A stretch of DNA of 42,242 nt from a virus. Position 1 is the stretch's first letter, and each line of letters starts with the position of its first letter. A program made the translations under genes and the position numbers. Location of the stretch: IMG/VR virus record IMGVR_UViG_3300042338_000752, positions 1 to 42,242 of that record; one strand, written 5' to 3'. This document shows positions 8,673-41,600 of this stretch, piece by piece. Under the pieces are notes generated by a model, which saw nothing but the letters and a program-made list of their open reading frames with translations, was not told where the DNA came from and searched no databases.

Positions 8673-9040
8673 ACTCACCTGTCTCCAATTCGTTTCTCTC
8701 CACGCTGCAAAGGCACCGTGGCGGCGGGCTGCTGGCTGATGCCAGCGACAAGCTGGCCGCCGTGGTCGCCGGGGTCCGGGCCACCGGTCGCCCCGGACAG
8801 CTCACTGTGAAATTGACGGTCAAACCCGCCCAGCGCGGGCAATCGGCCGTCGTCCTTACTGACGTCGTCGAAGCCAAAGCGCCTCGGGTCGAGGCGGAGG
8901 CCTCCTTCTGGTTTGCCGATGACGACGGGCTGCTCCGGACAACGGATCCCCGTCAAAAGGAGCTGCCGCTCCGCACGGTCACCGGATCGGTCATCGACGT
9001 GCCGAGTCCCGCCACCGAAGCCACGGCCGCCAACGCCTGA
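8669..9040 (+). CDS. Conserved phage protein, usual partner of DUF2303
   Basis: A 123-residue protein. A leading helical part (ADASDKLAAVVAGVRATGRPG) is followed by a beta strand pair (QLTVKLTVKPAQRG) and a section with FWFADDDGLLRTTDPRQ. I recognise this pattern from small proteins next to DUF2303 genes in many temperate phages; they have no established biochemical role but sit in recombination and early modules. An alternative in-frame start at 8564 would add 35 residues of poorer composition (MNDWPGTHGLHALVGL). The start at 8669 is preferred because it overlaps the preceding micro-ORF stop and fits the family start. Confidence 0.65.
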   Translation: MNSPVSNSFLSTLQRHRGGGLLADASDKLAAVVAGVRATGRPGQLTVKLTVKPAQRGQSAVVLTDVVEAKAPRVEAEASFWFADDDGLLRTTDPRQKELPLRTVTGSVIDVPSPATEATAANA

Positions 9041-9074
9041 TTCACCCTCATCCGAAACTCAACAGCCGAAAGCC

Positions 9075-9920
9075 ATGAACGAAAGAACCTATCCGCCAGT
9101 CCCGTCAGGCCCGCAAGAATCCCGAACGGATACCGACGCAATTATCGAATCCGCGCACGCCACTGGCGTGCCGCATGAACCGCCCGGACTCTGCGAAGGT
9201 GCGCCTGTCGTTGTGCTGCCCAAGGGCTACACGGCCACGCCGGTGCCGGGGTGGCGAAAGCAGCCCATACGGGCCAGTGGAACTGTCCAGTGCGAAACCC
9301 TGGAATCGCTGTGCCGGTACGTTTTGGAGTTCAAAACCCTCGATTCGCGGGTGTTCGTGTCCATGCAAAAAGGCGTGGTCACTGCCGTGCTCGATTATCA
9401 TGCGTCGGACGGGACCACTGGGGGATGGTGTGAGCACCGGTGCACCTTGGTGCCAATCAAGAGCGACGCCTTCGAACGATGGGAGAAGGTCAACGGCAAG
9501 CCGATGTCGCAGTCGGAATTCGCGTTGTTCTTGGAGAATAACCTTCAGCACATCTTTGAGCCCAGCGGCGCCGATCTCCTCGGCATCATCAATGCCTTCG
9601 AGGTGGATGGCGCGATGAGCTTCTCGAAGGTGCAGCGTCTCCAAGACGGGTCCGTCAAGATGGCGTTCTCCAACGAGACGCGGGCGAAGTCGGGCGACGT
9701 GAATGTTCCCACCAAGTTCGCGATCTCCGTCCCGATGTTCTTGGGTGACGACGCGATTCCGATTACCGCGAGGCTCCGGTACCGGCTGGGCGCTGGGGGT
9801 GACCTGAAGCTCTGGTTTGAGCTGGAGGAGCTGCCTGAAGCGCGCATGCGCGCGTTCAATGCGATGGTGGCCCGCATCGCGCAGGTCACCGAAATCGTCC
9901 CGTTCCTCGCCCAGGTGTGA
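9075..9920 (+). CDS. DUF2303 family protein (YfdQ-like)
   Basis: A 281-residue protein from the ATG at 9075. After a proline-rich leader of about 65 residues, the body matches the DUF2303 pattern: a helix/strand start (CETLESLCRYVLEF), VTAVLDYHASDGTTGGWCEHRCTL, then the helical part MSQSEFALFLENNLQHIFEPSGADLL, and a final beta-rich part (ISVPMFLGDDAIPITARLRYRL). DUF2303 proteins occur in early regions of many phages and cryptic prophages; their function is not established. It follows the usual partner gene and its TGA overlaps the GTG of the next gene. Confidence 0.85.
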   Translation: MNERTYPPVPSGPQESRTDTDAIIESAHATGVPHEPPGLCEGAPVVVLPKGYTATPVPGWRKQPIRASGTVQCETLESLCRYVLEFKTLDSRVFVSMQKGVVTAVLDYHASDGTTGGWCEHRCTLVPIKSDAFERWEKVNGKPMSQSEFALFLENNLQHIFEPSGADLLGIINAFEVDGAMSFSKVQRLQDGSVKMAFSNETRAKSGDVNVPTKFAISVPMFLGDDAIPITARLRYRLGAGGDLKLWFELEELPEARMRAFNAMVARIAQVTEIVPFLAQV

Positions 9921-10186
9921 GCACGGAGATTTCCACGAAGGAACTGATTCGGGCCGCGGCTGTCCTCTCGGACGCTGGGTTCCGTGTGGTCCCGCCGGCC
10001 GTGTGGCATCTGAGACTGCTCCGGCCGGCGGATGTGGGTGAGATCCTCGGCGTCTGCCAGCGGCGGGCGCGGGAGATCATGTTGGGGCTCCCCGGGACCG
10101 TGCGCCTCCCAGGTAACGATCTGCGCGCGCGGCCCGGGGAGTTGGAGCGGTGGATCAAGCAGCAGGAGATTCCAGGGGGCCTATGA
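9917..10186 (+). CDS. Excisionase-like HTH protein
   Basis: An 89-residue protein starting with GTG at 9917, in the stop of the DUF2303 gene. The central part LRPADVGEILGVCQRRAREIMLGLPGTVRL, followed by PGELERWIKQQ, matches the winged HTH of MerR/excisionase-type proteins: recognition helix, wing, then a helix often ending in a W. It is therefore a candidate directionality factor for the integrase or an early DNA-binding regulator. Two other genes here (13265, 19739) also encode HTH proteins of this general kind, so the excisionase cannot be assigned to one of them. Confidence 0.6.
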   Translation: MSTEISTKELIRAAAVLSDAGFRVVPPAVWHLRLLRPADVGEILGVCQRRAREIMLGLPGTVRLPGNDLRARPGELERWIKQQEIPGGL

Positions 10187-10425
10187 TCGAGCGGGAATTC
10201 AAGAAGTACCTGACCAGCGTGTACCCGATGGGAGTTCCTCCTCAGCAGGAGGCTGAAGTCCGGCAGGCATTCTTCGCCGGTGCGGCGGTCGCTATGTGCG
10301 AGATCGGGGTGGCGGCCGATGCGGGCGATAGGAATGGCGTGCGGGTCCTCAAAGAGTTGGATCGGGAGCTGGCTGAATATGTCGCGCTCCGGGCGGCCCA
10401 GCTCAAAAACCCTGCGCGATCATGA
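10183..10425 (+). CDS. Small hypothetical protein
   Basis: An 80-residue protein overlapping both neighbours by ATGA (10183 and 10422). It is helical: a first helix (REFKKYLTSVYP), an Ala-rich middle (EVRQAFFAGAAVAMCEIGVAADAGD) and a charged final helix (LKELDRELAEYVALRAAQL). Short proteins of this shape (LTSVYPMGVPPQQEAEVRQAFFAGA) occur in many phage early operons without a known function. Cytoplasmic by composition. Confidence 0.6.
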   Translation: MIEREFKKYLTSVYPMGVPPQQEAEVRQAFFAGAAVAMCEIGVAADAGDRNGVRVLKELDRELAEYVALRAAQLKNPARS

Positions 10426-10589
10426 GCATCCTCGATCTGTTCTTCTCTGGTGCGCGTCTGGGAATCGTGGTCGCCGGCGTGCTGTACGGATTCCTGCTCG
10501 CCTCGTGCGTCGTGTGGTTTTGGCTCTGGCTCCTCGTCGAGTCGGTGGGGTGGATCTGGGCGGGTGTGACGCGAAGGAGGAATCAATGA
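10422..10589 (+). CDS. 55-residue membrane protein
   Basis: The frame from the ATG at 10422 to the TGA at 10587-10589 encodes 55 residues. Residues about 10-46 are almost entirely hydrophobic and rich in Trp, Val and Leu (GIVVAGVLYGFLLASCV, VWFWLWLLVESVGWIW), enough for a long helix or a two-helix hairpin. The end is positive (TRRRNQ), suggesting a cytoplasmic C-terminus. It overlaps the genes on both sides by ATGA. The function is unknown. Confidence 0.6.
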   Translation: MSILDLFFSGARLGIVVAGVLYGFLLASCVVWFWLWLLVESVGWIWAGVTRRRNQ

Positions 10590-10819
10590 GTGCCAATTTC
10601 CAGCCCGGTCCGCGGCCCTTGCCTGAACTCGCAGCCTGCCCGTTTTGCGGATGCAGCGGTCACTGGGCTGTCCAGGTCGAGGAAGGCGAGTTCGCGATCA
10701 TCTGCTCAGTGTGCCACGCCCGAGGCCCCAAGGCCCCGCTGAGTGTGCTGGCCATTCACGCATGGAACCGGCGGCGCGAGCCCAATGAGCCCGTGCCGCC
10801 GGAAGGAGGGAAGGGATGA
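10586..10819 (+). CDS. Lar-like restriction alleviation zinc protein
   Basis: A 77-residue protein with the zinc-binding pattern of Lar-type restriction alleviation proteins: CPFCG at 18-22, CSVC at 40-43, then ARGP at 45-48 and the typical end AIHAWNRR at 56-63. In Rac prophage, Lar modulates type I restriction so that unmodified DNA survives; many phages carry short relatives whose activity has not been tested. The gene is preceded by AAGGAGG, one of the few clear Shine-Dalgarno sequences here, inside the end of the preceding gene. Its stop lies 2 bp from the stop of the converging minus-strand gene. Confidence 0.75.
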   Translation: MSANFQPGPRPLPELAACPFCGCSGHWAVQVEEGEFAIICSVCHARGPKAPLSVLAIHAWNRRREPNEPVPPEGGKG

Positions 10820-10821
10820 TC

Positions 10822-11652
10822 TCAGGCTACTTGGATAACTGCGCGGAAGGCGTGGGTGCGATCCTTGGCGCATACGTGTCCGACAAATTCGCGAGTGGTT
10901 GGCCATTGGCCGGTAGAGTTCACAGACACGGGGATGAGCGTTGGGTGCATCTGGGGAGCAATAGCGTCGCGAACTTGGGTGGCGATCCACGTGCTGTCCA
11001 ATGGGGGTTCGCCGGCGGTGTATTGGTAATCAAAATCGGCCTTTATTTCGCCGTCGATCGTGATGGCGATGCGCAGAAACGGGTTGTGGATATCGTGCAG
11101 GGTTTCCGCGTAATCGGTGGGGCGAACGGAGCGTCGGCCGGTGCTGCCGACGTAATGGATCGATCTTTCCCAAAGCACGTCCGGATCCGGGGCCGCGTGT
11201 TTGGATTCGGCGTGAAATCCGCGCGTGTGACTGTAGCGGATCACGGGATCATGGACGTTGAGCCCAAAAGCCTCGTCGATGGCATGGGCAAATCCGGTCC
11301 GGCCTCCTGTGAGAGAGTTTGGACGTCCGCCGCTGGCTCCGTTCGCCCGTGCCGCCGCTGCCTTCTGCGGGCTCCTCGACGAGCCTCCGCGTCGGGCCAG
11401 CACGCGGGCTGCGGCAATCGCGTCGCAGGCATCGTTGAGCGCGCTGCGCATGTCGGAGGGCGACATGATTTCATCGTCGGCGGGGCTGACGGGGCAAAGG
11501 ACCGTGACGCTGTCCCGATTGCGCGTCACGTATCTGTAGTTTCGTCCTGGAGAGGTAACGATGGTGCCGACGGCGAAGCCTCGAGGTACGCGCAGGGTTC
11601 GCTCGAAGAGATAGATGTCCGTCTCGGGTGTGTCGGTACTGGTGGTGCTCAT
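10822..11652 (-). CDS. Unrecognised protein of the minus-strand cassette
   Basis: A 276-residue protein, second gene of a two-gene minus-strand unit set inside the otherwise plus-strand early region. Residues about 20-60 look beta-rich (LRVPRGFAVGTIVTSPGRNYRYVTR). A helix follows (MRSALNDACDAIAAARVLARRGG), then a basic linker (SPQKAAAARANGASGGRPN) of a kind common in plasmid and phage DNA-binding proteins. The C-terminal half is mixed alpha/beta. No family recognised. A long plus-strand frame over the same DNA (10816-11970) has the look of an antisense shadow. The inverted orientation and separate control region suggest a moron, possibly expressed in the lysogen. Confidence 0.65.
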   Translation of the reverse strand: MSTTSTDTPETDIYLFERTLRVPRGFAVGTIVTSPGRNYRYVTRNRDSVTVLCPVSPADDEIMSPSDMRSALNDACDAIAAARVLARRGGSSRSPQKAAAARANGASGGRPNSLTGGRTGFAHAIDEAFGLNVHDPVIRYSHTRGFHAESKHAAPDPDVLWERSIHYVGSTGRRSVRPTDYAETLHDIHNPFLRIAITIDGEIKADFDYQYTAGEPPLDSTWIATQVRDAIAPQMHPTLIPVSVNSTGQWPTTREFVGHVCAKDRTHAFRAVIQVA

Positions 11653-11682
11653 GGTGTTTGGTCTTGGGGTTGGGACGGAGTT

Positions 11683-11919
11683 TTAGGGAGCGAGATTGTA
11701 GGCGTCCGGGATGTCATCGTATCGGACCAACCAACCTTGGCTCAACCCGTGCGCAATGGCAGCATCGGCGAGCTGGTAGCAGTTCTCTCGGGTCCCGTTT
11801 TGGGCCTGGATCCGGATTTCTCGGGCGATTTCATCCCGACCGACCGGACCGCAGGCGCGTACGATTTCAATCGTGGCGTCAATGTGGTTGTGGGTTGCGG
11901 GTGTCATGTGTGTGTCCAT
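11683..11919 (-). CDS. Small winged-helix-like protein of the minus-strand cassette
   Basis: A 78-residue protein from the ATG at 11919; the ATG at 11907 is also possible. A longer frame from 11955 would run through the 18-bp palindrome and was rejected. The pattern HIDATIEIVRACGPVGRDEIAREI, then ENCYQLADAAIAHGLSQGWLVRY, is that of a winged helix used in small transcription regulators. It is the first gene of the cassette and lies 12 bp from the palindrome, so it may autoregulate the unit. The function is inferred. Confidence 0.6.
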   Translation of the reverse strand: MDTHMTPATHNHIDATIEIVRACGPVGRDEIAREIRIQAQNGTRENCYQLADAAIAHGLSQGWLVRYDDIPDAYNLAP

Positions 11920-11931
11920 GGACAAAGAAAT

Positions 11932-11949
11932 AACCCAAGCGCTTGGGTT
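11932..11949. promoter_or_regulatory. 18-bp perfect palindrome, divergent operator candidate
   Basis: AACCCAAGCGCTTGGGTT is a perfect 18-bp palindrome between the divergent starts at 11919 (minus) and 11967 (plus). A homodimeric regulator could control both directions from here; the winged-helix-like protein at 11683 is the nearest candidate. The half AACCCAAG also matches one of the iterons in the replication gene (14133). No promoter hexamers are clear. Confidence 0.55.
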
Positions 11950-11966
11950 TGTCAAGGGGGTGCTGT

Positions 11967-12236
11967 GTGAGTGAAGAAATGGATGACATCGATTTCGCCG
12001 ACATAGCCGACGAAAGCCCGCTCGGGCCCCAGCGATGCCTATTCCCGCGGGAGTGTTTGATGCCGGGGCCGCACTACACGTGCGAATGCCACACGCTGGA
12101 CGATCTAATTGGCCCGGCCGAGGCGAAGAAGGTCCGGCGCATGGATCGCCTCACGCAGCGTGAAAGGCGCAAGGCGAGGCAACTGCGTGCCCTGGTGCAC
12201 CACCTGTGCGGTTCAGAGCCGAGGAGGAAGGCATGA
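11967..12236 (+). CDS. Small Cys-containing hypothetical protein
   Basis: An 89-residue protein. The GTG at 11967 is chosen because AAGGGGG ends 6 nt before it; an ATG at 11979 is four codons further in. The N-terminus is acidic (EEMDDIDFADIADE). A section with three cysteines follows (CLFPRECLMPGPHYTCEC), which could bind a metal, and then a very basic helix (KKVRRMDRLTQRERRKARQL) that could contact nucleic acid. The stop overlaps the next start (ATGA at 12233). No family recognised. Confidence 0.6.
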   Translation: MSEEMDDIDFADIADESPLGPQRCLFPRECLMPGPHYTCECHTLDDLIGPAEAKKVRRMDRLTQRERRKARQLRALVHHLCGSEPRRKA

Positions 12237-12472
12237 GTGACGCACTCCCCCAATCTGACCCGCGAGGGCTCGGTAAGTCCTATGATGATGTTTGCTGCAT
12301 CTATAATGGTAAACGCGTCCGAATAGCCGACTCCTACGCATTCGAACTGCGATGCACGCGGGCCGGAGGTTGGTCACTCTGGCATGTTTGGGGTGGGATC
12401 GAGCAAAGGCTTGCGGAGGAATTCGGCGAGCCGCGACTGCAAATTGAAGTGAGGGGAGTCCGCATACTGTGA
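12233..12472 (+). CDS. Small hypothetical protein
   Basis: A 79-residue protein with a good ribosome binding site (GAGGAGG, 5 nt before the start) and an ATGA overlap with the gene before. A short beta-rich body is likely (YNGKRVRIADSYAFELRCTRAGGWSLWHVWGG). Its first codons resemble those of the next gene: both encode MS, a short variable stretch and PQSDP, and both contain the DNA string CCCCAATCTGACCC. The DNA looks less GC-rich than its neighbours. The function is unknown. Confidence 0.6.
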   Translation: MSDALPQSDPRGLGKSYDDVCCIYNGKRVRIADSYAFELRCTRAGGWSLWHVWGGIEQRLAEEFGEPRLQIEVRGVRIL

Positions 12473-12473
12473 C

Positions 12474-13235
12474 ATGAGTGCCGATATTCCCCAATCTGAC
12501 CCTCTGGCGGTCGCTGAGTCAGTCAGCGCAGCCATGGTCCGCCAGCCGGACCTTTTCGCTGGTGAGGCCTTTTCGAGTTCTGAGCTGGAAATGGTCAGGC
12601 ATGCACGGAAAGGCAGGTACAACGGCGCCGTGACCACCCGGAGCGAGGCTCGTGTGGCTCTGGTGGTGGCCCTGCGGCAGATGGGATGCTCGCTGCGGGA
12701 GATCCAGCGGCGCACCGGGATGGACACCCGCTTGGTGCTCGTGGTCGTGCGGGAAGCCGAAAAGTGCGGTGTCGTACCAGCGATTAAAGAGGAGCTGGGA
12801 AGGCGACTGGCCGAGACGACCGAGCTTGCATTGGCCCGACTGGGTCAAGAGCTGGAGAAAGAGGAGCCGGATCACCAGTTGGTCCGGGCGCTTGGGGTTG
12901 TGGCGGGGATTGGCGCCGACAAGATGACGGCCGCCGGCGCGAGCGGCCCGGACCTGCATCTCCACCAGCACGTCCACCTGGCCGGTGCCGACCCGGCCCG
13001 CGACTACCTCATGAAGCGGGCTGCGGTGCTGGCAACTGAGTCGGAGTCAGCCCAGCAACCCACGGAATCCACGCCAATCTTGGCCGATGTCGATGCTGCC
13101 GCCGTGCTGGCTGCTCACGTCGGCAGCCGGACCGACTCGAGTCCTGATCCCGGACCGAACCCGGCACCCGCCTCGAACACCCCCGCCACCCCGGGGGGGG
13201 GGTCGCCGATTTTGGCGCCGGGCGCCACGCCGTAG
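12474..13235 (+). CDS. HTH protein, possible small-terminase-like or regulatory protein
   Basis: A 253-residue protein. Residues about 58-105 contain an HTH (VALRQMGCSLREIQRRTGMDTRLVLVVVREAE), followed by a long helical part with ELGRRLAETTELALARL and LVRALGVVAGIGADK. That combination is seen in phage HTH proteins sometimes labelled small terminase subunits, but the large terminase lies about 4.5 kb downstream, so this is uncertain. The last 60 residues are Pro/Ser/Thr-rich and disordered. A run of ten Gs (13193-13202) lies near the 3' end, and an adjacent frame stays open into the next gene. Confidence 0.65.
   Translation: MSADIPQSDPLAVAESVSAAMVRQPDLFAGEAFSSSELEMVRHARKGRYNGAVTTRSEARVALVVALRQMGCSLREIQRRTGMDTRLVLVVVREAEKCGVVPAIKEELGRRLAETTELALARLGQELEKEEPDHQLVRALGVVAGIGADKMTAAGASGPDLHLHQHVHLAGADPARDYLMKRAAVLATESESAQQPTESTPILADVDAAAVLAAHVGSRTDSSPDPGPNPAPASNTPATPGGGSPILAPGATP
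13193..13202 (+). repeat. Homopolymer of ten Gs
   Basis: G10 lies near the 3' end of the HTH gene. After the run, the frame of the next gene (starting at 13265) is open without a stop, so a one-base backward slip or one extra G would join both genes into one frame. It may be a slippage site or an indel-prone stretch. Confidence 0.6.
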
Positions 13236-13264
13236 TCGTCACCGTCAGAGAACTTTTTGCACAC

Positions 13265-13744
13265 ATGCCCGACCCCCAAACCAACCCCATCGAACCCGTG
13301 GACTCTGGCGAGCTGGCCTTGAGCCTCGGAATCACCATCCCCCTCCTTCGCACCCTGCGCCGCCAACACCTGGCCGAAGGTGCCGATTGGTTCCGCTCTG
13401 GTAACTCCGTGCTGATCCAGCCTGAAGGCGTCGAAAAGCTGCGGCTGGCGATCGGCTTGGACGCGGAAAAGGCGCCCCCCGCGGCGCCCCCCGCGGCGCT
13501 CAAGGCGGTGGTCGTGAGTTCGCCCCGGGCCTTCGGGAACGTCAGGAAGCACTTCCCGAACGCGGGCGTCATCCGCTGCGCGATCGAGGGCACGGGGGAA
13601 CTGGTCTGGGTCAGGGTCCGCAGCTCGGTCAATTACTTCCCCCGCCTCCGCAACGGGGATCCCATGATCCTCGAAGTCCAGAAACAGCCAGACGGACGGT
13701 GGCAAGCCCTGGGACGGGCGCCACGCTTCCCGGCTCGCTGGTAG
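13265..13744 (+). CDS. HTH-containing hypothetical protein
   Basis: A 159-residue protein from the ATG at 13265. The N-terminal part (DSGELALSLGITIPLLRTLRRQHL, then WFRSGNSVLIQPEGVEKL) looks like an excisionase/MerR-type HTH with its wing. An Ala/Pro linker follows (APPAAPPAALKA). The C-terminal part (VIRCAIEGTGELVWVRVRSSVNYFPRL) is beta-rich with a basic surface. It is separated from the gene before by 29 bp, unusual in this operon, and the frame is open upstream to the G10 run. A DNA-binding role is inferred. Confidence 0.6.
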   Translation: MPDPQTNPIEPVDSGELALSLGITIPLLRTLRRQHLAEGADWFRSGNSVLIQPEGVEKLRLAIGLDAEKAPPAAPPAALKAVVVSSPRAFGNVRKHFPNAGVIRCAIEGTGELVWVRVRSSVNYFPRLRNGDPMILEVQKQPDGRWQALGRAPRFPARW

Positions 13745-13791
13745 AGCCTTCCATCCCCCTTTCACCGCCAGACTCAACAGAAAGCCACCTC

Positions 13792-14853
13792 ATGATCGTC
13801 AAACCAAGCCTGTTGGATCACCCGAAGTTCCTGCGCCTGCAAAGACGACTCGGAAAAGACAGCCTGCACCTTCTGATCCGCATCTGGGCCCACTGCGAGA
13901 CGGATTGCAGGGGCGAAGTGTGGGCAGACAAGGATCCGGAATACCTCGAAGCCGTCGCCCGGTGGGAAGGCGAGGCAGGGTTTGCATTCAAGGCCTTCGT
14001 GGACGCCGGATTCATCGCCTACACCGGAGGCTCCATTTTGGTCCACGACTGGAACGAAATGAACGCCTCGCTGATCGCGTCCTGGACCAACGGGCGCACC
14101 GGAGGGAGGCCTTCCCGCAAAACCCACGGGGTAACCCAAGTGGGTGTTAACCAGAACCCAGCGGATAACCCATCGGTTTCGTCAAAAACAACCCACGGGG
14201 TAACCGGGGAGCAGGTTTCGGATAACCCAGAGGTTACCCCACGGGTAACCCACGGGTTGCAAGATGCGACTTCTTTGCAAAATGGCCAATCCACGGAACC
14301 CACGGGTAACCCACGGGTTTCCGAAACAGGCCAAATCGAAACCCGTGGGACCCCCGAGAAGAGAAGAGAAGAAGACACACTCGCGTGCGAGAGCCATTCA
14401 GCCTTCGCTGAGGCTCCGTCAGTCGAGGAAGTCTTGAGCTTTGGTTCCTCCTTCCGGGGGGAGATGGCAACAGGTGCCCCCGGGCCCATCGATCCGGCTT
14501 ACTGCCGCTCGTGGTGGGAACGGAAGGACAACTCGAGGAACGGGGGGTGGTCTACAATCCTCGACTGGCGCAGGGCACTGGTCTCGTCCTGGCGCGCAGA
14601 CTTCCGAAAGACCTTCTGGAAGGGCGGGAGCGCCAGCGCGTCTACGTCGACACCTGCGGAGCGCGCCGAATCGGTCCCCCTGGGCATCCGGATCCGCGAA
14701 CTCGAAAAGGCCGCCGAGGAGCACATTGGGAACCCCGAAAGCACGCGCGGCACCTTGGAGGCCAAGGCGAAGGCCAAGCCGGAGTGGTTGAAACTGAAAA
14801 AGCTGGTGCGGGAACTGCGCGGCCAGCTCGTTGGCACGGAGGTGGAGCCGTGA
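13792..14853 (+). CDS. Replication organiser / helicase-loader-like protein with intragenic iterons
   Basis: A 353-residue protein from the ATG at 13792. Residues 1-95 (MIVKPSLLDHPKFLRLQ..., LHLLIRIWAHC..., FKAFVDAGFI..., ILVHDWNEMNAS) match the winged-helix N-terminus common in phage replisome organisers. Residues about 105-190 are a linker encoded by the iteron array. The C-terminal part (PAYCRSWWERKDN..., WSTILDWRRALVSSWRADFRKTFWKGG) resembles the DnaD/DnaT-like or lambda O/P-type part that contacts the helicase. The DnaB gene follows about 900 bp downstream. By analogy with lambda O, the protein would bind its own intragenic iterons and recruit the helicase. The stop overlaps the GTG of the next gene. 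Confidence 0.75.
   Translation: MIVKPSLLDHPKFLRLQRRLGKDSLHLLIRIWAHCETDCRGEVWADKDPEYLEAVARWEGEAGFAFKAFVDAGFIAYTGGSILVHDWNEMNASLIASWTNGRTGGRPSRKTHGVTQVGVNQNPADNPSVSSKTTHGVTGEQVSDNPEVTPRVTHGLQDATSLQNGQSTEPTGNPRVSETGQIETRGTPEKRREEDTLACESHSAFAEAPSVEEVLSFGSSFRGEMATGAPGPIDPAYCRSWWERKDNSRNGGWSTILDWRRALVSSWRADFRKTFWKGGSASASTSTPAERAESVPLGIRIRELEKAAEEHIGNPESTRGTLEAKAKAKPEWLKLKKLVRELRGQLVGTEVEP
14121..14350 (+). repeat. Iteron array inside the replication gene, probable origin
   Basis: Eleven copies of a 10-13-bp unit with consensus AACCCACGGGT(T) start at 14121, 14133, 14155, 14167, 14190, 14224, 14234, 14247, 14297, 14308 and 14340. Five contain exact AACCCACGGG; the rest differ in the middle bases. 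Most copies are themselves imperfect inverted repeats (ACCC..GGGT). A purine-rich stretch (GAGAAGAGAAGAGAAGAAG) follows at 14356-14374. Iterons within the initiator gene are the lambda O-type arrangement of a replication origin. The origin role is inferred. Confidence 0.7.
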
Positions 14854-14996
14854 GTGGCCGAGGACACCGGAGCGGGCCGCAGGAGGACATGAAGAAGGCC
14901 GTCCGTGAACTGTGGAAGAGGGTGAAGCAGCGATCGGAGGAACGCTCGGTGGTGAAATTCATCCCTCACCCCAAGACCAGGAAGGAGGCGCGATGA
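14850..14996 (+). CDS. 48-residue basic protein
   Basis: The frame starts with the GTG at 14850, inside the stop of the replication gene, and ends with a TGA that overlaps the next start (ATGA at 14993). It encodes 48 residues rich in Lys and Arg (MKKAVRELWKRVKQRSEERS). An internal ATG at 14889 would give 35 residues. It is probably a small helical, nucleic-acid-facing or scaffold peptide. No family recognised; the double overlap supports it being a real gene. Confidence 0.55.
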   Translation: MSGRGHRSGPQEDMKKAVRELWKRVKQRSEERSVVKFIPHPKTRKEAR

Positions 14997-15457
14997 GTTC
15001 CACCAGTCCAATCCCGCCCGGCGCTCGTTGCGGTGGGTGCTGTCACTTTCTGTTTGGTGACCGAATGGCTCAAACCGGATTTTGCAGTTTGTTCATGAAG
15101 ACTACTGAACCAAACGCCGGATCCGCCTGCACTGCGTGGCAATCGCGGATTGGGTCGTGCGACCAGTCTTTCGGCCCAGCGGAACCTCCCCAATGCGGAA
15201 ACCGCGATACAACCGCAGGGAATGAGGACGCGCAAACCGCTGGGCCGGTCAAATGGTCGTACGAGATCTTTCGAAACGAATTGTTCGTGGGATCAGGTTC
15301 AGGGTTGCGCGGCATCGATGATGTTTTGGCTGCCGTCCGCCACGCGATGGTCACATCTGAGAAATTTGGCAATCAGCTGACGCGCGTCGTAGTTACTCGC
15401 CATGCGTCGCGGAACAACGCGATGAGCGCACGCGCCGCCACGGAGGCACCCCAATGA
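14993..15457 (+). CDS. Zinc-binding-like hypothetical protein
   Basis: A 154-residue protein from the ATG at 14993. The N-terminus has the spacing of a small zinc ribbon seen in phage proteins: CGGCCHF, then GFC, then SAC followed by TAWQ. The C-terminal part, after an Ala/Gly linker, is mixed alpha/beta (WSYEIFRNELFVGSGSGLRGIDDVLAAVRHAM). The DNA looks less GC-rich than the flanking replication genes, so it may be a recent addition to the operon. It overlaps both neighbours by ATGA. The function is unknown. Confidence 0.6.
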   Translation: MSSTSPIPPGARCGGCCHFLFGDRMAQTGFCSLFMKTTEPNAGSACTAWQSRIGSCDQSFGPAEPPQCGNRDTTAGNEDAQTAGPVKWSYEIFRNELFVGSGSGLRGIDDVLAAVRHAMVTSEKFGNQLTRVVVTRHASRNNAMSARAATEAPQ

Positions 15458-15741
15458 CCACCACCCCTATGCCACGCGAAGCCGTAGCCCAAGCCGCGGC
15501 TCGCTTCTGCAAGCCCAAGCCAACGCCTGAACGTGAGCCGGTGCGTCACTGGTTCAAGGTCCGGGAGCTTATGGCTACGGGTCCCAAGTCGTACCGCGAC
15601 GTTGCGGCGGCCCTGCTGCTGAATCCCTGGCACGCCAACACGCTGATTCGTCGGCTCGCCTGGGCGGGGCTGATTGAAGTTCACCAGCGCGGGCTGAAAG
15701 GCAGCCGGCGCCGGGCCACGACGTACAGGATCAAGCAATGA
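15454..15741 (+). CDS. Small winged-helix-like DNA-binding protein
   Basis: A 95-residue protein. The stretch WFKVRELMATGPKSYRDVAAALLLN, then HANTLIRRLAWAGLIEVHQRG and SRRRATTYRI, is typical of a winged helix: two HTH helices, a third helix and a basic beta wing. It lies directly before the helicase gene and overlaps it by ATGA (15738), so a role in replication control or helicase loading is possible. No named family recognised. Confidence 0.6.
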   Translation: MTTTPMPREAVAQAAARFCKPKPTPEREPVRHWFKVRELMATGPKSYRDVAAALLLNPWHANTLIRRLAWAGLIEVHQRGLKGSRRRATTYRIKQ

Positions 15742-17195
15742 GTGCCCCGAACGATCGGCTGCCACCTCACGCCCCGGATGCGGAGCGCGCTGTGCTCGGG
15801 TGCTGCCTTGAGGATCCCAGTCTGCTCGTGGTCGCCCAGCAGGCGCTCCACAACGGGGCCGAGGCGTTCTATGACCTGCGGCACCGGGAAATCTTCGCCG
15901 CCTTGGTGGCGATGGAGAACGAGGGTCGCGGCGTCGACATGATTGGGCTGATGTCTCGGCTGCGGGACATCGGGAAACTCGAAGCGGTGGGCGGCATTGT
16001 CTACCTCAACGAGATCGTGGACGGAGTCACCTCGACGCAGAACATCGAGGCGTACCTCTCGGACGTTCGCGACAAGGCGACGCTCCGGGCAATGATCCAG
16101 ACGTGCGTGGGCACGGTCTCTGCCGCCTACCAGCACGCCGGCCCGGTGATGGAGCTGGTGGGGCAATTCCAGTCCGAGGTGGGAAGCCTGACTCAGGCGC
16201 ACGTCAGATCGGCGGACGTGCCGATCGCCACGCCGATGATGGAGCTGGCGGCCATCCTCGACGAGCGATCCAGGGGCAAGCAGGCGATCACCGGCATCCC
16301 AACGCCGTGGTGGTATCTCAACAACATGACGTGCGGGCTCCAGCGGTCGGAGTACTACGTCATCGCGGCCCGGCCTTCGACGGGGAAGACCGCCATGGGC
16401 GTCGACATCGCGTTGCACGCGGCAATTACGGGCGTGCCGGTCCTGTTCTACTCCATAGAGATGACGGCCCGGGAGATCGCGCTGCGCATGCTGGCTAACC
16501 GGTCCAGGGTGAACGGCCTGAAGCTGCGAAATGGGTTCTGGCGAGAGAACAAGAAGGCGGACATCGCCGCTGCATCGGAGCAGATCGTGGGCCTCCCAAT
16601 CCGCATCGACGAACGGAAGTCCATGAGTGGGCAGGACATTCTCCTGGGCACCCGGCGGGCTGTGCGGGAGCACAACATCGGCCTCATCGTCGTGGACTAC
16701 ATCCAGAAGTTGACCGCCGTTAGGCAGCGAAACTCCCGCCACGAGGAACTCACCGAGGCCTCGGGCTACATGGCGCGCGTCGCCAAGGAGCTGAACATCC
16801 CCGTCGTGGTCTGCGCCCAGCTCAACCGCGATTCCGACAAGGACCGGGGCGGCAAGCGCCCCCTGCTGGCCGACATCAAGGACTGCGGCGCGATCGAGCA
16901 GGATGCCGACGTGGTCGGACTGCTGTGGGAGCCCAAGGTCGACGAGTCCGATCCGGAGGAAATGAAGTGGCTGGAGCATCACCAGCCCGACGACCCGAAG
17001 GACGACGGCAAATGGCATGCGGAGGGACCGGATGCCGGGTGGAGGGAGGAATTCCGGAGGATCAATTTCAGCATCGCGAAGAACCGCAACGGCCCCACGG
17101 GGGAGTGCGAACTGGTGATGCAGAAAGCCAGCGCGCGATTCGTGGACGCTCACTCTCCAAAGCGCGTGAAGGAGAAACAGGGAACCATCATCTGA
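15738..17195 (+). CDS. dnaB: Replicative DNA helicase, DnaB family
   Basis: A 485-residue hexameric helicase that unwinds DNA at the phage replication fork. The N-terminal domain (about 10-120) has the usual start (LPPHAPDAERAVLGCCLEDPSLL) and the RHREIFAAL helix. The RecA-like domain begins near 185 and contains the Walker A motif ARPSTGKT with Lys217 and Thr218, a Walker B-type strand with IVVDYIQKL (Asp320), and motif CAQLNRDSDKD followed by GAIEQDADVV. Length and domain order are normal for DnaB, with an insertion of about 30 acidic residues near 400-430 (DPEEMKWLEHHQPDD). Together with the replication organiser and its iterons it forms the replication module. Confidence 0.93.
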   Translation: MSAPNDRLPPHAPDAERAVLGCCLEDPSLLVVAQQALHNGAEAFYDLRHREIFAALVAMENEGRGVDMIGLMSRLRDIGKLEAVGGIVYLNEIVDGVTSTQNIEAYLSDVRDKATLRAMIQTCVGTVSAAYQHAGPVMELVGQFQSEVGSLTQAHVRSADVPIATPMMELAAILDERSRGKQAITGIPTPWWYLNNMTCGLQRSEYYVIAARPSTGKTAMGVDIALHAAITGVPVLFYSIEMTAREIALRMLANRSRVNGLKLRNGFWRENKKADIAAASEQIVGLPIRIDERKSMSGQDILLGTRRAVREHNIGLIVVDYIQKLTAVRQRNSRHEELTEASGYMARVAKELNIPVVVCAQLNRDSDKDRGGKRPLLADIKDCGAIEQDADVVGLLWEPKVDESDPEEMKWLEHHQPDDPKDDGKWHAEGPDAGWREEFRRINFSIAKNRNGPTGECELVMQKASARFVDAHSPKRVKEKQGTII

Positions 17196-17199
17196 AGCC

Positions 17200-17772
17200 A
17201 TGACACCCGAAGAACTCGTGACGGCGGTGCAGGTGGCCGGGGGTGGCGTGCGGAAGCTGGCTGATGGCCGGTTCTCTCTGTGGGGGCCGGTGCCGGACGC
17301 CATCGTCGAAGCCATCAAGGCCCAGCGAGACCAATTCGTCGAGGCGTGGGACGCGGAGCGCAACGACCGGTACCTACGTACCCCAACGACGGACATTAAG
17401 CTGCGGAAGGATCCGCCTCACCGCATGCGGGCCGCTCTGAAACGTCGCGTCCAACAGTACGTGCTGAACCAGTGCCCGGAGGTGTCGCGATACGCCTTCG
17501 ATCGGTCGATTCACTACCACGAGGTGCATCCGGAGTGGGGCGAGGGCGATTGCGCGACCGCCGCGGCGCTCGACGTCGTGGAGTGGCAGCTCGTGCGGCA
17601 CGAGGATCCTGTGGCGATGCTCGTCTCGCTCGGAGAAGCGTTCGACGAGATCATGATTTCCTCGGGGCAATGCGTCCAAACAGGAGTCGGACCCGGTTCG
17701 CCTGCTGGGTTGGGGAGCAAACGCATTCGCCGGCCGAATGGTACGGGTAACCCCGAGGATAACGATCGATGA
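17200..17772 (+). CDS. Protein with TubC-N-like N-terminus
   Basis: A 190-residue protein starting 4 bp after the helicase gene. The first 50 residues (MTPEELVTAVQVAGGGVRKLADGRF, then VPDAIVEAIKAQRDQFVEAW) match the small TubC N-terminal docking-type domain, which also appears at the front of many phage and plasmid proteins. The remainder (HRMRAALKRRVQQYVLNQC, HYHEVHPEWGEGDCATAAALDVVEWQ) is helical and unrecognised. It lies between replication and packaging genes and overlaps the terminase gene by ATGA. A role in replication or packaging is a guess. Confidence 0.6.
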   Translation: MTPEELVTAVQVAGGGVRKLADGRFSLWGPVPDAIVEAIKAQRDQFVEAWDAERNDRYLRTPTTDIKLRKDPPHRMRAALKRRVQQYVLNQCPEVSRYAFDRSIHYHEVHPEWGEGDCATAAALDVVEWQLVRHEDPVAMLVSLGEAFDEIMISSGQCVQTGVGPGSPAGLGSKRIRRPNGTGNPEDNDR

Positions 17773-19739
17773 CGTTCGAGGACCTCATCGCGCGAGAGCC
17801 GGATCATCCGCTCCTTCCGCTTCCGAGCGAGGCGGAGCTGGATCGGATGATCCGGCGGGCTGGTCCGGATCGGGCGCTCAAGGAGTGGGAGGACCTGTGC
17901 GAGATGCGGCGTCGCATCATCCGCAGTGCGGTGGATGATCCCGTGCGTTTTGCTCCTCGCCCGGTGTTCTGGCGCTCCGCTCGGCGCATGCTGCAAAACC
18001 CGACGACCAAGCTGCTGGTCATTCTGGGCGGCAACCGTTCAAGCAAGTCGTTCTTCGCCGCCTACACGCTCATGGAGACGGCGCTGGCCGTCACTGCTCC
18101 CGAGGTGGCGGTCAATGAAGGCGTGACGTTTCTGGTCACCTCGGAGTCGGAGGATTCATCGAAGGACACGGCCCAAAAGATCGTGTGGGGCCTGCTTCCG
18201 CAGCCGCTCAAGAAGCTGAACGGCAAGCGCGACCACACGACCTTCATTCACTACTCCGTAAAAAACGGGTTCACCGACAACGTGCTCGTGCTGCCCAGTG
18301 GCGTGAAGATCCAGTTTGCCACGTACAACCAAGACCCCGGGGAGTGGGAAGGGCGCGAGTTGGGTCTGAAACATCGGCGGGCGATGGCGTGGTGGGCGGA
18401 CGAGAACATGACGCTTCCGTGGTTCATGATGTTCCAGCGCCGCGGCAAGTACCGACCTGGCTTCGGACTGTGGTCGTTCACGCCGGTGAACGGAATCACG
18501 GCGACAATCAAGGAAGCGGTCGGGTCTGGGACCGTGCGCGTAACCCGGTCGGCGAAGCTGCTGCCCTTCGATCAAATCCTTGTGCCCGGTCTGAAGGCTG
18601 GCCGTGTGCCGTTCATCCAGGACGGGGCCGAGCCCACCACGGCGGTCATCTACTTTCATTCGGACCTGACCCCGTTCCGGTCGGGTGGTCGGAAGTACTC
18701 CGACCTCGTTGCCGAGCTGGTGGCGGGCAAGACCAAGGCGTACATCCTTGCCGTCTTCTACGGGTACACCGAGGACGTCGCGGGGCGCGCGTGGCCGAAG
18801 TACGCGCGCACGACGCACATGGTGCCCGTGTCCAGGCTTCCCGCGCGTGGGTCCAACTACCTCATAATCGATCCGGCGGGAGCGCGGTCGTGGTTCATGG
18901 TCTGGATCCGTGTGGAGCCCGGCAATCCCCGGCGCCTGTGGATTTATCGCGATTGGCCCGACAAACGGCGGCATGGCGAGTGGGCGGTGCCCACAACACG
19001 GCAAATCGGTCCGGACTCCCGGCGGGGGCGCGATGGCGACGCCGGCCCGGCTCAACGGAATCCAGGCTGGGGCGTGGCGAGGTACAAGCGGCAAATCCTC
19101 GCCGAGGAGACGATCGAGATGAAGGTGGGGGCGGATGGCCGTTGGCTGGATCCGGACCCGTATCGGCGGGACCGCCTCGACCAGGCGATGCGACTTGGCG
19201 CCAAACGCCCGTTGCGAACGGTCGTGCATCCCAACGGCGTCGAGGAATGTTGGTGGGGCAAGGCCGACGTGGAGGACGTCCGCACGAAGCTGAAGGAGCC
19301 AGTGCGCGAGGAGGTGGTGCTGCGGTTCGTTGACCCCCGTGCAGTGGGCCAGCCGCAGGCGGCCGAGAAGGGCGGGGTGACGTTGGTCACGTTGTTCGAA
19401 GACGAACAGCGGGCCCCGGACGGCACGATCGAAGGCCCGAGCATGCCCGTGATTCCGGCCTACTCGGGCCGAGATATTGAGGAGGGCATTCGGGCGGTGA
19501 ACGATCTGTTGGACTTCGACGAGGAGGCTCCGATCGTGCCGCTGCTCAACGAGCCAAGGCTTCGGATTTCCGAGAAGTGCGAACAGGTGGACTGGTCGCT
19601 CAGTCATTACACCGGGGAAGGCTCCGAGAGTGATGGCGGCAAGGACACGGCGGACGTCATTCGCTACGTGGCGATGACCGAAGACCTTCAATTCGTGGAC
19701 ACAAAATCAAGCCGCGTGCGTCGCGGATGGAGCTACTGA
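17769..19739 (+). CDS. terL: Terminase large subunit
   Basis: A 656-residue ATPase/nuclease that cuts and pumps DNA into the prohead. A Walker A-like loop ILGGNRSSKS is at 85-94 (Lys93), of the kind found in many TerL proteins. A Walker B-like stretch (RAMAWWADE) lies near residue 210. The C-terminal nuclease part begins near 365 with LIIDPAG, containing the first expected acidic metal ligand, and ends with an acidic/His section (GGKDTADVIRYV) that could carry the last ligand. It overlaps the gene before by ATGA and the next by TGATG. The portal gene follows after one small gene. Confidence 0.88.
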   Translation: MTFEDLIAREPDHPLLPLPSEAELDRMIRRAGPDRALKEWEDLCEMRRRIIRSAVDDPVRFAPRPVFWRSARRMLQNPTTKLLVILGGNRSSKSFFAAYTLMETALAVTAPEVAVNEGVTFLVTSESEDSSKDTAQKIVWGLLPQPLKKLNGKRDHTTFIHYSVKNGFTDNVLVLPSGVKIQFATYNQDPGEWEGRELGLKHRRAMAWWADENMTLPWFMMFQRRGKYRPGFGLWSFTPVNGITATIKEAVGSGTVRVTRSAKLLPFDQILVPGLKAGRVPFIQDGAEPTTAVIYFHSDLTPFRSGGRKYSDLVAELVAGKTKAYILAVFYGYTEDVAGRAWPKYARTTHMVPVSRLPARGSNYLIIDPAGARSWFMVWIRVEPGNPRRLWIYRDWPDKRRHGEWAVPTTRQIGPDSRRGRDGDAGPAQRNPGWGVARYKRQILAEETIEMKVGADGRWLDPDPYRRDRLDQAMRLGAKRPLRTVVHPNGVEECWWGKADVEDVRTKLKEPVREEVVLRFVDPRAVGQPQAAEKGGVTLVTLFEDEQRAPDGTIEGPSMPVIPAYSGRDIEEGIRAVNDLLDFDEEAPIVPLLNEPRLRISEKCEQVDWSLSHYTGEGSESDGGKDTADVIRYVAMTEDLQFVDTKSSRVRRGWSY

Positions 19740-19987
19740 TGGAACCTGCCGAGATCAAACGAATGCCGGAAACTGTGTCGCGCTCCGTGTTCTGCGAGGC
19801 AACGGGGCTGCCGCCCCGAACGGTGGCGAGGATGCGAGCGAGGGGTGAAATCAGGGCAATCCGGATCGGATCCCGCCACCGTTACCTGCGCTCGGAGATT
19901 GCCCGACTGGTCGGGGTGGGCTATCAGGGCCCGGACGTTTCGCCGAGGACGCCGCCAGCGCCCGCACTCGTAAGGAGCAAGGTATGA
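19739..19987 (+). CDS. Excisionase/MerR-type HTH protein between terminase and portal
   Basis: An 82-residue protein; the ATG at 19739 forms a TGATG overlap with the terminase stop, which is why the ATG at 19727 was not used. The body (VFCEATGLPPRTVARMRARGEIRAIRIGSRHRYLRSEIARLVG) is a clear excisionase-family HTH: first helix, recognition helix, wing and final helix. This position is unusual for a regulator or excisionase. It could be a small packaging-related DNA-binding protein, a late regulator or the real directionality factor. It overlaps the portal gene by ATGA. Confidence 0.7.
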   Translation: MEPAEIKRMPETVSRSVFCEATGLPPRTVARMRARGEIRAIRIGSRHRYLRSEIARLVGVGYQGPDVSPRTPPAPALVRSKV

Positions 19988-22113: not shown

Positions 22114-22421
22114 ACCCGGAACTTCGCAAATCGTTGGAGGTGCTCCAAGGCACTCCCGCCGGTGCCGCCCTGCGCGCTCTGGTCTGGGAACATCGCAGGA
22201 ACCACATCGGTCAACTCCTGGCCGGGCCGGAGAAGACGACGGATCGGCAACGCGAGTACTCGGCGGGTGCCGTCGCCGGGCTGGAGGACCTCTATGCCGA
22301 CCTCCGCGAAATCTTGAAATGGGGGTCCGAGGCCAGTTCGCGAAATCCTGATCGCGACATTGTAGGGCCACAAGGGCCACAAGGGCCACAAGGGCCACCG
22401 TGGAACGGCGGAGGCTTGTGA
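22110..22421 (+). CDS. Small protein with a collagen-like tail
   Basis: A 103-residue protein from the ATG at 22110, overlapping the portal stop. The main part is helical (LRKSLEVLQGTPAGAALRALVWEH, and REYSAGAVAGLEDLYADLREIL). It is followed by four collagen-type triplets (GPQGPQGPQGPP) encoded by a 9-bp direct repeat, then a short WNGGGL end. Small helical proteins often sit between portal and scaffold genes in this kind of phage. Collagen-like repeats in phage proteins can form trimers; four triplets are probably too few alone, so they may be a linker. The function is unknown. Confidence 0.65.
   Translation: MNPELRKSLEVLQGTPAGAALRALVWEHRRNHIGQLLAGPEKTTDRQREYSAGAVAGLEDLYADLREILKWGSEASSRNPDRDIVGPQGPQGPQGPPWNGGGL
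22365..22400 (+). repeat. 9-bp tandem repeat encoding collagen triplets
   Basis: GGGCCACAA is repeated three times and a fourth unit reads GGGCCACCG, in frame with the gene at 22110. The codons are identical, which points to recent slippage expansion rather than old conserved structure. Confidence 0.85.
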
Positions 22422-38699: not shown

Positions 38700-41600
38700 A
38701 TGGGAGCCTACGATGACCTCGTGCCGGTTGATTCTGGCGTTGATCCTTACGCGGACCTCGTTCCTCCCGCACCACGTCCTCGCACCACCGATAGCCCTGG
38801 TCGTGTCCGACTGGAATCGTACGCGGCCGGCATGGAGCGTCTCGGAGAGGAAACTCCATTGGGCGCCATCGGCCAACGGGTCGCCTTGGGTGGCAAAACC
38901 CTCCTGGCCGCCTTTGCGGACATGGCGACCGTCCTTCCGGGTGGGCCTGAACCGTCGGCCGAGAACCTTCGCGCGTACGCGCAAAATCCCGAGGCACCGC
39001 TCCCTGTCGAGGAAGGCCTGGCGGAAATGTCTGGCCTCGGCTCAATCCCGACCAAGGCGGCGGCAGGTTTGATTCGGACCGTGCCGGCTCTGGGGGCCAC
39101 CGCGTTGCTGGCGGGTGCCGGGGTGCCCAGCGCCTTGGCGGCGGCCATTCCCATGTCGGCCGACGAGCGCGGTGTCCCCGACCCCAAGGGGGTCGCTGTG
39201 GGCGCCATGCTGCCGGGGGTCAGTGCCGCCGGAGAGCGCGCGGTGGCCGCTGGGCTGGCGCGCCTACCCATGAAGGAAGTGGCCATCGTGCTCTCGCGCG
39301 ATCCGCTGCGCCTCAAGGGCAAGGTGGTGCAGAAGTTCGGTCCGGTGGATCTGTCTAACGACGTGTTCCGGCAGTGGATGGAGACGGGGGGAGGGGTCGC
39401 GAGTGCCAACGCTTTCCTGCTGGCGACACAGATTCCGGAGATTGCTGCGCTACCCGCGGAGCAACGAGTCGAGGCGGTCATCGATTCGATGGCTGCCAAC
39501 ATCGGGCCGAGCCTGCTGGGCTTCGTGGCGCGCAAGCCCATGTCGGGAGCCATGGAGCGCATGGCGCCCGAGATTATGCGGCGGGCCAAAGACGCTTTCA
39601 CTGCCAAGCCTCCGCCGCGGCGTGGGCCTGGGGGCCCCAACATGCCGGCCGAGGAAGGTGCTCCTGTCCCTCCTCCGGATCCTGCTGGGCCTTACGGCGA
39701 CTTGGTGCCAACAAAATTTGGGGGAGGTGAACCCAAACCGCAGGAGGCATCCCCAATGCCGCCAGCGCCGACGGGTGTGGTTGAGCCCGTCACACCACCG
39801 CGCGAGGAGGTGACCAGCAATGAGCAAGGCCAAACCCAAGAGCCGAAGCAAGAAGAAGGGGTATTGATCCCGCCGCCAGACAGTAAACCAGCGCCTCCGC
39901 CGGATGGCCCGGCGCCGGAACCCGTCAAGGTTCCAGCGCCGCTGCCTCCGACGCCTGCGACGCCTCCGGATCCGGCCGCCACAAACCCCGGTGAGCTGGT
40001 GGCCAATTTCGTGCGTAACTCGCTGGCGAACGGCGGAGCTGTTGGCCAGGCCGAAGTGCTGCGCATGGGAAAGGAGCTGGGGCTCGAAGAACGCGAGGCG
40101 GAGGAATGGGCGGAGCTTGGTTCCACGGAGGCCTCGAGGGGAATCGTGCAGACGGAGGACATGACGCCCCGCGAGAAGTTCGCGGCGCTGGTGTCGCTCT
40201 ACGACAAGATGCCTCGGGCTGCGACGCGCGACGTCGAGACCAAGGTCAATCAACAGTATTCCACCCCGCCGCCCCTGGCGTACGTCGCCAGCCTGCTCGC
40301 CGACATCCCGGGGGGAACAAGGGTGGTGGATCCAACTGCCGGGCACGGCATGCTCACGATCGCGACAAGCCCAAAAGCAAACGTGGTGCTCAATGAGTTG
40401 GCGCAAGGAAGGCTTGAGCGATTGACCCGATTTGTTCGGGGGTCCAATGCTTTCGTGTCCAACATGGACGCCACTTCCGCGGAATTCTTCGAAAGGCTTG
40501 CTCTCTCCCGGGTGGACCGGCTTGCCATGAATCCGCCCTTTGGGACCGTGATGGGGCCCGACGGCAAATCGATCTCCTGGCCCATTGCCAACCCGGCCCT
40601 GCCTCGGAACCAATCGACAGTGTCCATCGACCTGGCCATCGGGCTCAACGCCCTCGACAAGATGGCCCCGGATGGGAAGGCCTTCCTCATCATCGGGTCC
40701 AAGACCGGGACGCCCTTCGGCGAAATGAGCGAGGATCCGGCGCAACGGGCGAAGGACTACCAGCGCGGGGTCATGCTGGAATTCTTCCAGCGGTTCAACG
40801 TGGTCGATTGGTTCACCGTCGGGGGCGACCTCTACCGCAAAATGGGAGCGGGGTGGCCGGTGGACGTCATCATCGTTCACGGCAAGGGCAAGACCCCCTC
40901 GTCCAAAGAGGGAGGCATCGAGCGCCCTTGGATCAAACCTCCCCGCGTAATCGAATCCTGGGAGGAACTCGGCAAGCTGATTCCTGAAGCGAAACATGAA
41001 AGCATCCATTCCCCGAAACCCCAGCCCCGACCCGAAGCTGGTGGATCAAGCGGTCGATCTCCTGGCGGACGCTCTGACGGAAGTACTCCTGGAGCAGGAC
41101 AGGGAGGTGGGGAGCGATCCGGAGGCGAGGCGTTACCTGCTCCGCGACCTGAACGGATCCCTGCGGCAGGCGGGGGCGGGGACGGGGGCGGACGTCCGGC
41201 CGTCGATGCTGGACGACCCCGACCGCCTGCTCCGCCCGCACCTGCGGGCGTCCCTGGAGATTCCGGCGACGGAATTGGCAAGGGAAAGCCGGGAGCGCCT
41301 GGTCCAGTGGATCGAGTCGGCGCCCCCGCTCCGGAGCCCCGAGCGCCTGGGGTGGGCGAACGAAGCGCCCCACCTGCTCCGCGGCGAGACCTGACGCCGC
41401 AGCCTCCGACCGAGGGGCTGCCGGCGTCGCTCATGGTGCCCTACGTGGGGGCGTCCCGCGGGCCGTCGCTCAACCTCGTGGCGCCGCGAAACATCGCGTC
41501 GCAAATGCTCAACGCCCAACGCGCGCTTGAGCGCGAGGTGGGCATGCCGGTTGACGAGTACGTTGCGGGGAAGCTCGGCCGAGACCTGGCGACCCTCCAC

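Follow-up and report, generated by a model that had tools for sequence, protein, structure and literature searches.

An in-gene iteron array as the probable initiator-binding part of a replication origin in an uncultured phage

In-gene origins of lambda and SPP1 and the locus in the window

An origin design in which iterons lie within the initiator gene is already known from phages lambda and SPP1. The lambda iterons are 18-bp inverted repeats with hyphenated symmetry and an AT-rich region adjoining them (PMC7466680, PMC6022878), and oriL of SPP1 is located within gene 38, whose product, the replisome organizer gp38, binds direct repeats there (PMC6316719). Here, we describe an array of repeats within the initiator gene of an IMG/VR virus record, which was analysed over its whole length of 42,242 b and is called the window below. 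Both the initiator family and the repeat differ from those of lambda, the repeat being the tighter one in the window. Judging from the sequence and from analogy, the array is very probably (at a rough probability of 0.88) the initiator-binding part of a phage replication origin, placed among the codons for the linker of the initiator, in the manner of lambda ori and SPP1 oriL.

The initial annotation had likened the locus to the lambda O arrangement, with more, shorter and individually near-palindromic units. The layout proved to be comparable: in both cases the iterons separate the coding regions of the N- and C-terminal domains near the centre of the gene, and a purine run (18 nt in O and 20 nt in the window) comes after them; when lambda O was analysed with the same script, a repeat excess was found only in the linker, and the 18-nt run came after it. 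The units are indeed more numerous and shorter, since lambda ori has four 18-bp iterons (ATCCC...GGGA) at steps of about 20-24 bp, whereas the window has eleven 12-bp AACCCACGGGTT units, mostly at steps of 11-12 bp and their multiples. Near-palindromic units, however, are true of lambda too and constitute no difference. Lambda employs the loader P and the DnaB of its host, whereas the window phage has its own DnaB-like gene, and the AT-rich region alongside the lambda iterons contrasts with a tract in the window that is not strongly AT-rich. With regard to the protein, PF04492 (Phage_rep_O) had no match in the window protein or its relatives, while lambda O itself matched at 5.7e-36, and a profile comparison of the N-terminal domain family of the window with lambda O returned a probability of 0.6%. 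Membership of the lambda O family was therefore ruled out.

The arrangement is also like that of SPP1, in which the repeats of the replisome organizer lie within its own gene and the DnaB-type helicase is phage-borne (PMC6316719); SPP1 differs in having a second origin and the loader gp39. No separate helicase loader gene was identified near the initiator gene (rep) in the window. The protein gp65 of Paenibacillus phage Harrison is perhaps akin to the window protein, its N-terminal domain having been aligned with 29% identity, though the E value was no better than 0.09, and its linker shows a mild repeat excess, but of another sequence (GTCAC-type). The papers retrieved contained no description of the iterons of phrog_9474-type initiators.

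The initiator gene and its neighbourhood

The N-terminal half of the window protein (aa 6-145) matched the phrog_9474 profile, 'replication initiation protein', at E=3.3e-11, and the same profile was matched by all 8 members of relative group A1. Pfam searches gave no match above the cut-off for the initiator protein. The ATG at 13792 was preferred over the mechanical ORF start at 13699 because homologues also begin with MI[IV]. In many relatives, as in the window, a dnaB-like gene lies just downstream of rep. Positions 8792-19850 of the window are nearly identical to contig IMGVR_UViG_3300044731_001455 (29,020 b), with 99.97% identity over the 11,059 b compared.

AlphaFold, applied to the N-terminal domain of the window together with relatives (16), predicted the order H-E-H-H-E-E-H at a mean pLDDT of 70.8 (medium confidence). 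This order of helices and strands is typical of winged helices, so far as a predicted fold of medium confidence indicates. Compared with a viral fold library, the model had its best match in 'Replisome organizer' (E=4.4e-6), and 'Primosomal protein 1' was also matched. A PDB fold search with the model gave no match at E<0.05, and many of the best entries were winged-helix regulators; a PDB sequence search gave no significant match.

Table 1. Features of the initiator gene, its repeat array and the helicase gene in the window
Feature	Position	Strand	Remarks
Replication-initiator (replisome-organiser-like) gene, 353 aa	13792..14853	+	phrog_9474 match; homologues in >80 viral contigs
N-terminal domain (aa 1-110), putative iteron-binding domain with a predicted winged-helix-like fold	13792..14121	+	AlphaFold, viral fold match
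Iteron array, 11 units, consensus AACCCACGGGTT	14121..14351	+	between N-terminal domain and C-terminal part of initiator
Unit 1 AACCCACGGGGT	14121..14132	+	codon phase 2
Unit 2 AACCCAAGTGGG	14133..14144	+	weakest unit
Unit 3 AACCCAGCGGAT	14155..14166	+	codon phase 0
Unit 4 AACCCATCGGTT	14167..14178	+	codon phase 0
Unit 5 AACCCACGGGGT	14190..14201	+	codon phase 2
Unit 6 AACCCAGAGGTT	14224..14235	+	codon phase 0
Unit 7 ACCCCACGGGTA	14236..14247	+	codon phase 0
Unit 8 AACCCACGGGTT	14247..14258	+	codon phase 2
Unit 9 AACCCACGGGTA	14297..14308	+	codon phase 1
Unit 10 AACCCACGGGTT	14308..14319	+	codon phase 0
Unit 11, opposite centre, reads AACCCGTGGGAC on +	14340..14351	-	codon phase 2
All-purine run, 20 nt, candidate unwinding or entry tract	14356..14375	+	likewise placed in relatives and in lambda O
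C-terminal part, exchangeable module, contains YCRSWWERK...DWRRALVSSW	14428..14853	+	BLASTP to L104 C-terminus E=1e-8; C-termini unrelated among relatives
DnaB-like replicative helicase, probably the one that is loaded	15738..17195	+	PF03796 E=4.6e-66, PF00772 E=5.6e-24

The repeats exceed chance and are not forced by the protein

A site scan confirmed the eleven units that had been noticed in the linker-coding part of the gene, five of them with the exact core AACCCACGGG (those starting at 14121, 14190, 14247, 14297 and 14308), as well as the purine-rich stretch after them. The steps between units are mostly 11-12 bp and near multiples of this, the exceptions being gaps of 50 and 32. Sites scoring at least 10/12 numbered 9 inside the array and 4 in the remaining 42 kb of the window; the latter (13057, 13293, 17938 and 24730) were rejected as further iterons, as their number is at chance level. 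When a weight matrix was built from relatives only, the top 8 window sites on both strands all fell within the array. With the same matrix and a minimum of 8 bits, the array yielded 9 sites, compared with at most 3 per any 240 bp in 20 Markov sequences.

A synonymous-codon null, in which the protein was kept fixed and the codons were redrawn (5000 draws), was used to evaluate the contribution of coding. The array contains 10 palindromic sites, compared with 2.9 under the redraw (largest draw 9), and 72 identical 8-mer pairs, compared with 4.0 (largest draw 20), while the other coding stretches of equal length in the window (n=119) hold at most 1 palindromic site and 8 such pairs. In addition, the units stand in codon phases 0, 1 and 2, so one DNA repeat yields different peptides (THGVT, NPRV and EPTGN). 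The repeats are a DNA-level feature that the protein does not force, and the earlier proposal that the linker protein is shaped by the DNA repeat agrees with both results. It might be argued conversely that selection acted on the protein, a flexible NPxV/THGVT linker whose codons repeat by chance, as linkers are often repetitive and relative L096 has an in-frame 12-bp repeat. However, this explanation is contradicted by the different peptides from the three phases, the frame shift that every 11-bp step brings and the failure of synonymous redraws to yield the repeats, and we consider it the least probable of those weighed here, with hardly any chance of being correct.

Conservation and variation among relatives

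The full-length protein found no relative in the genome contigs and the phage collection; the relatives came from scans with N-terminal domain profiles, which returned 80 loci each, largely overlapping. Together, these scans revealed homologous N-terminal domains in >80 viral contigs, mostly at 37-46% identity, and nearly all of these contigs carry the same kind of repeat in the same place. The 23-mer AACCCACGGGTAACCCACGGGTT occurred in 12 viral contigs in an IMG/VR scan, one of which is the near-identical contig of the window; in each of the remaining 11, a homologous rep gene contains it, directly after ...NGxKGGRPKK at the end of the N-terminal domain. A significant DNA-level excess of repeated 8-mers (synonymous redraw) was detected in the same linker in 18 of 20 divergent relatives, the excess being weak in L109 and L111. 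Retention of the protein with scrambled repeats, the contrary case envisaged by the initial annotation, is thus not the pattern. Outside the viral contigs, the N-terminal domain profile detected one locus in a MAG of the Verrucomicrobia; in the class of that MAG, 5 of 288 genomes gave matches, of which three were strong, and these three have AACCC..GGGT-type repeats together with a purine tract.

Most relatives use the iteron form AACCC-A[CT]-GGGTT. Variants were observed in a subgroup with AACCGACCGGTT or AACCCACCGGTT, in L061 with TTGGGTTAACCCAA, in L101, which contains AACCCTAGGGTT, and in the divergent L020, the linker of which holds a tandem CACTGGCCCAAG array. L180 and L181 were weak hits that yielded no linker sequence. 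The start-to-start gaps between units in 56 distinct linkers are 11-12, 22-23, 33-34 and 44-45 with two exceptions; these linkers are related to one another, so the gap counts are not independent. Such spacing by the helical turn suggests that the sites are bound from one side of the helix. A symmetric change at iteron positions 5 and 8 in L041/L089-type relatives (AACCG..CGGTT) is suggestive of binding by a dimer, but the sequences that show it are few and related.

Two further observations were made in the relatives. The L020 contig (IMGVR_UViG_3300037137_002010) ends within a perfect tandem 12-bp array of GCACTGGCCCAA (8 copies) in the rep linker, and the tandem repeat probably broke its assembly. 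In L023, L041, L063 and L089, an identical copy of the AACCGACCGGTT-type iteron is present at rep nt 120, in the KTDRF codons of the N-terminal domain, some 200 bp before the array; it is possibly an extra site or a coincidence of the conserved peptide.

The N-terminal domain, the repeats and the purine tract as one module

The C-termini of the relatives form several unrelated groups, some of which match O-like or DnaD-like families. Between L066 and L098, the N-terminal domains are 93% identical and the iterons and purine tract are near-identical, while the C-termini are unrelated right after the tract. Because the N-terminal domain, the repeats and the tract are kept together while the C-terminal domains differ, they move as one module. 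The repeats would accordingly seem to belong with the N-terminal domain, as expected were that domain to read them. The position of this switch, immediately 3' of the purine tract, might also suggest that the array merely marks a junction of modules or a hot spot of recombination and is not a binding site. However, the junction lies after the repeats and not within them, the repeats are kept with N-terminal domains that are only about 40% identical, and helical phasing and near-palindromic units would be left unexplained; we therefore regard a mere junction as very improbable.

The 20-nt purine run is longer than under the synonymous redraw (9.4, p=0.006). Among the 40-mers of the gene, the tract is one of the lowest in GC in most relatives, as in lambda O; in the GC-rich window, unlike most relatives, it is not strongly AT-rich, and duplex stability near it lies at about the 88th-94th percentile of weakness, which is not extreme. 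A bolder and tentative idea, which we think may well be wrong, is that phages, some at least of Verrucomicrobia, trade the N-terminal domain, iterons and purine tract as an origin cassette complete in itself and join it to unrelated helicase-recruiting C-terminal domains, with the tract acting as a sequence-encoded, strand-specific opener and not merely as an AT-rich stretch. A short inverted repeat, CTCGCGTGCGAG, was also noted at about 14379-14390 of the window, just 3' of the purine run.

A putative mechanism of initiation and the operator alternative

From precedent and anatomy, we infer the following course of binding, dimerisation, unwinding and helicase loading at an origin. The N-terminal domain, with its predicted winged-helix-like fold, would bind the near-palindromic 12-bp units, probably in dimeric form, and since the units are spaced by roughly one turn of the helix, the bound proteins would sit on the same side of the DNA. 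The resulting nucleoprotein complex may then open the DNA at the adjoining purine-rich tract, where the C-terminal domain would help to place the phage DnaB-like helicase.

Initiator sites within a gene could also repress it, and the sequence cannot separate repression from initiation. The array might thus be an autoregulatory operator or roadblock at which Rep binds its own gene to limit expression, with the origin elsewhere. However, the sites lie >300 bp into the gene and not over its start, phased units with an adjoining purine/AT-rich tract suit an origin, and the comparable sites of lambda and SPP1 belong to origins (PMC7466680, PMC6316719); an operator at this place is unlikely, although it is the least improbable of the alternatives to an origin. 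The cumulative GC skew, which had been proposed as a check, shows no turn at 14.1 kb and is uninformative as origin evidence.

Read as part of an origin, the array makes for a clear prediction of where replication starts in a group of uncultured phages; the use of iterons within the gene would thereby reach an initiator family that lacks a lambda O match. In natural domain swaps of the L066/L098 type, origin recognition would have remained fixed while the C-terminal domain changed. The signature of iterons plus purine tract may also be usable for locating origins in other metagenomic phages.

Other repeats in the window

The initial annotation had suggested that one protein might recognise both the array and a palindrome at 11932, as one unit shares a short sequence with the latter. 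This suggestion did not hold. The 8-mer common to the palindrome and one weak unit, AACCCAAG, occurs at 39833 too, and the perfect 18-bp palindrome AACCCAAGCGCTTGGGTT (11932-11949) is present as a single copy in the window and absent from all fetched relatives save the near-identical contig. It sits between divergent ORFs (about 11683-11919 on the minus strand and from about 11970 on the plus strand), an operator-like place, and looks like an ordinary operator outside the iteron system. Elsewhere in the window, a perfect 9-bp tandem repeat, AGGGCCACA, is present in 3.9 copies at 22364-22398.
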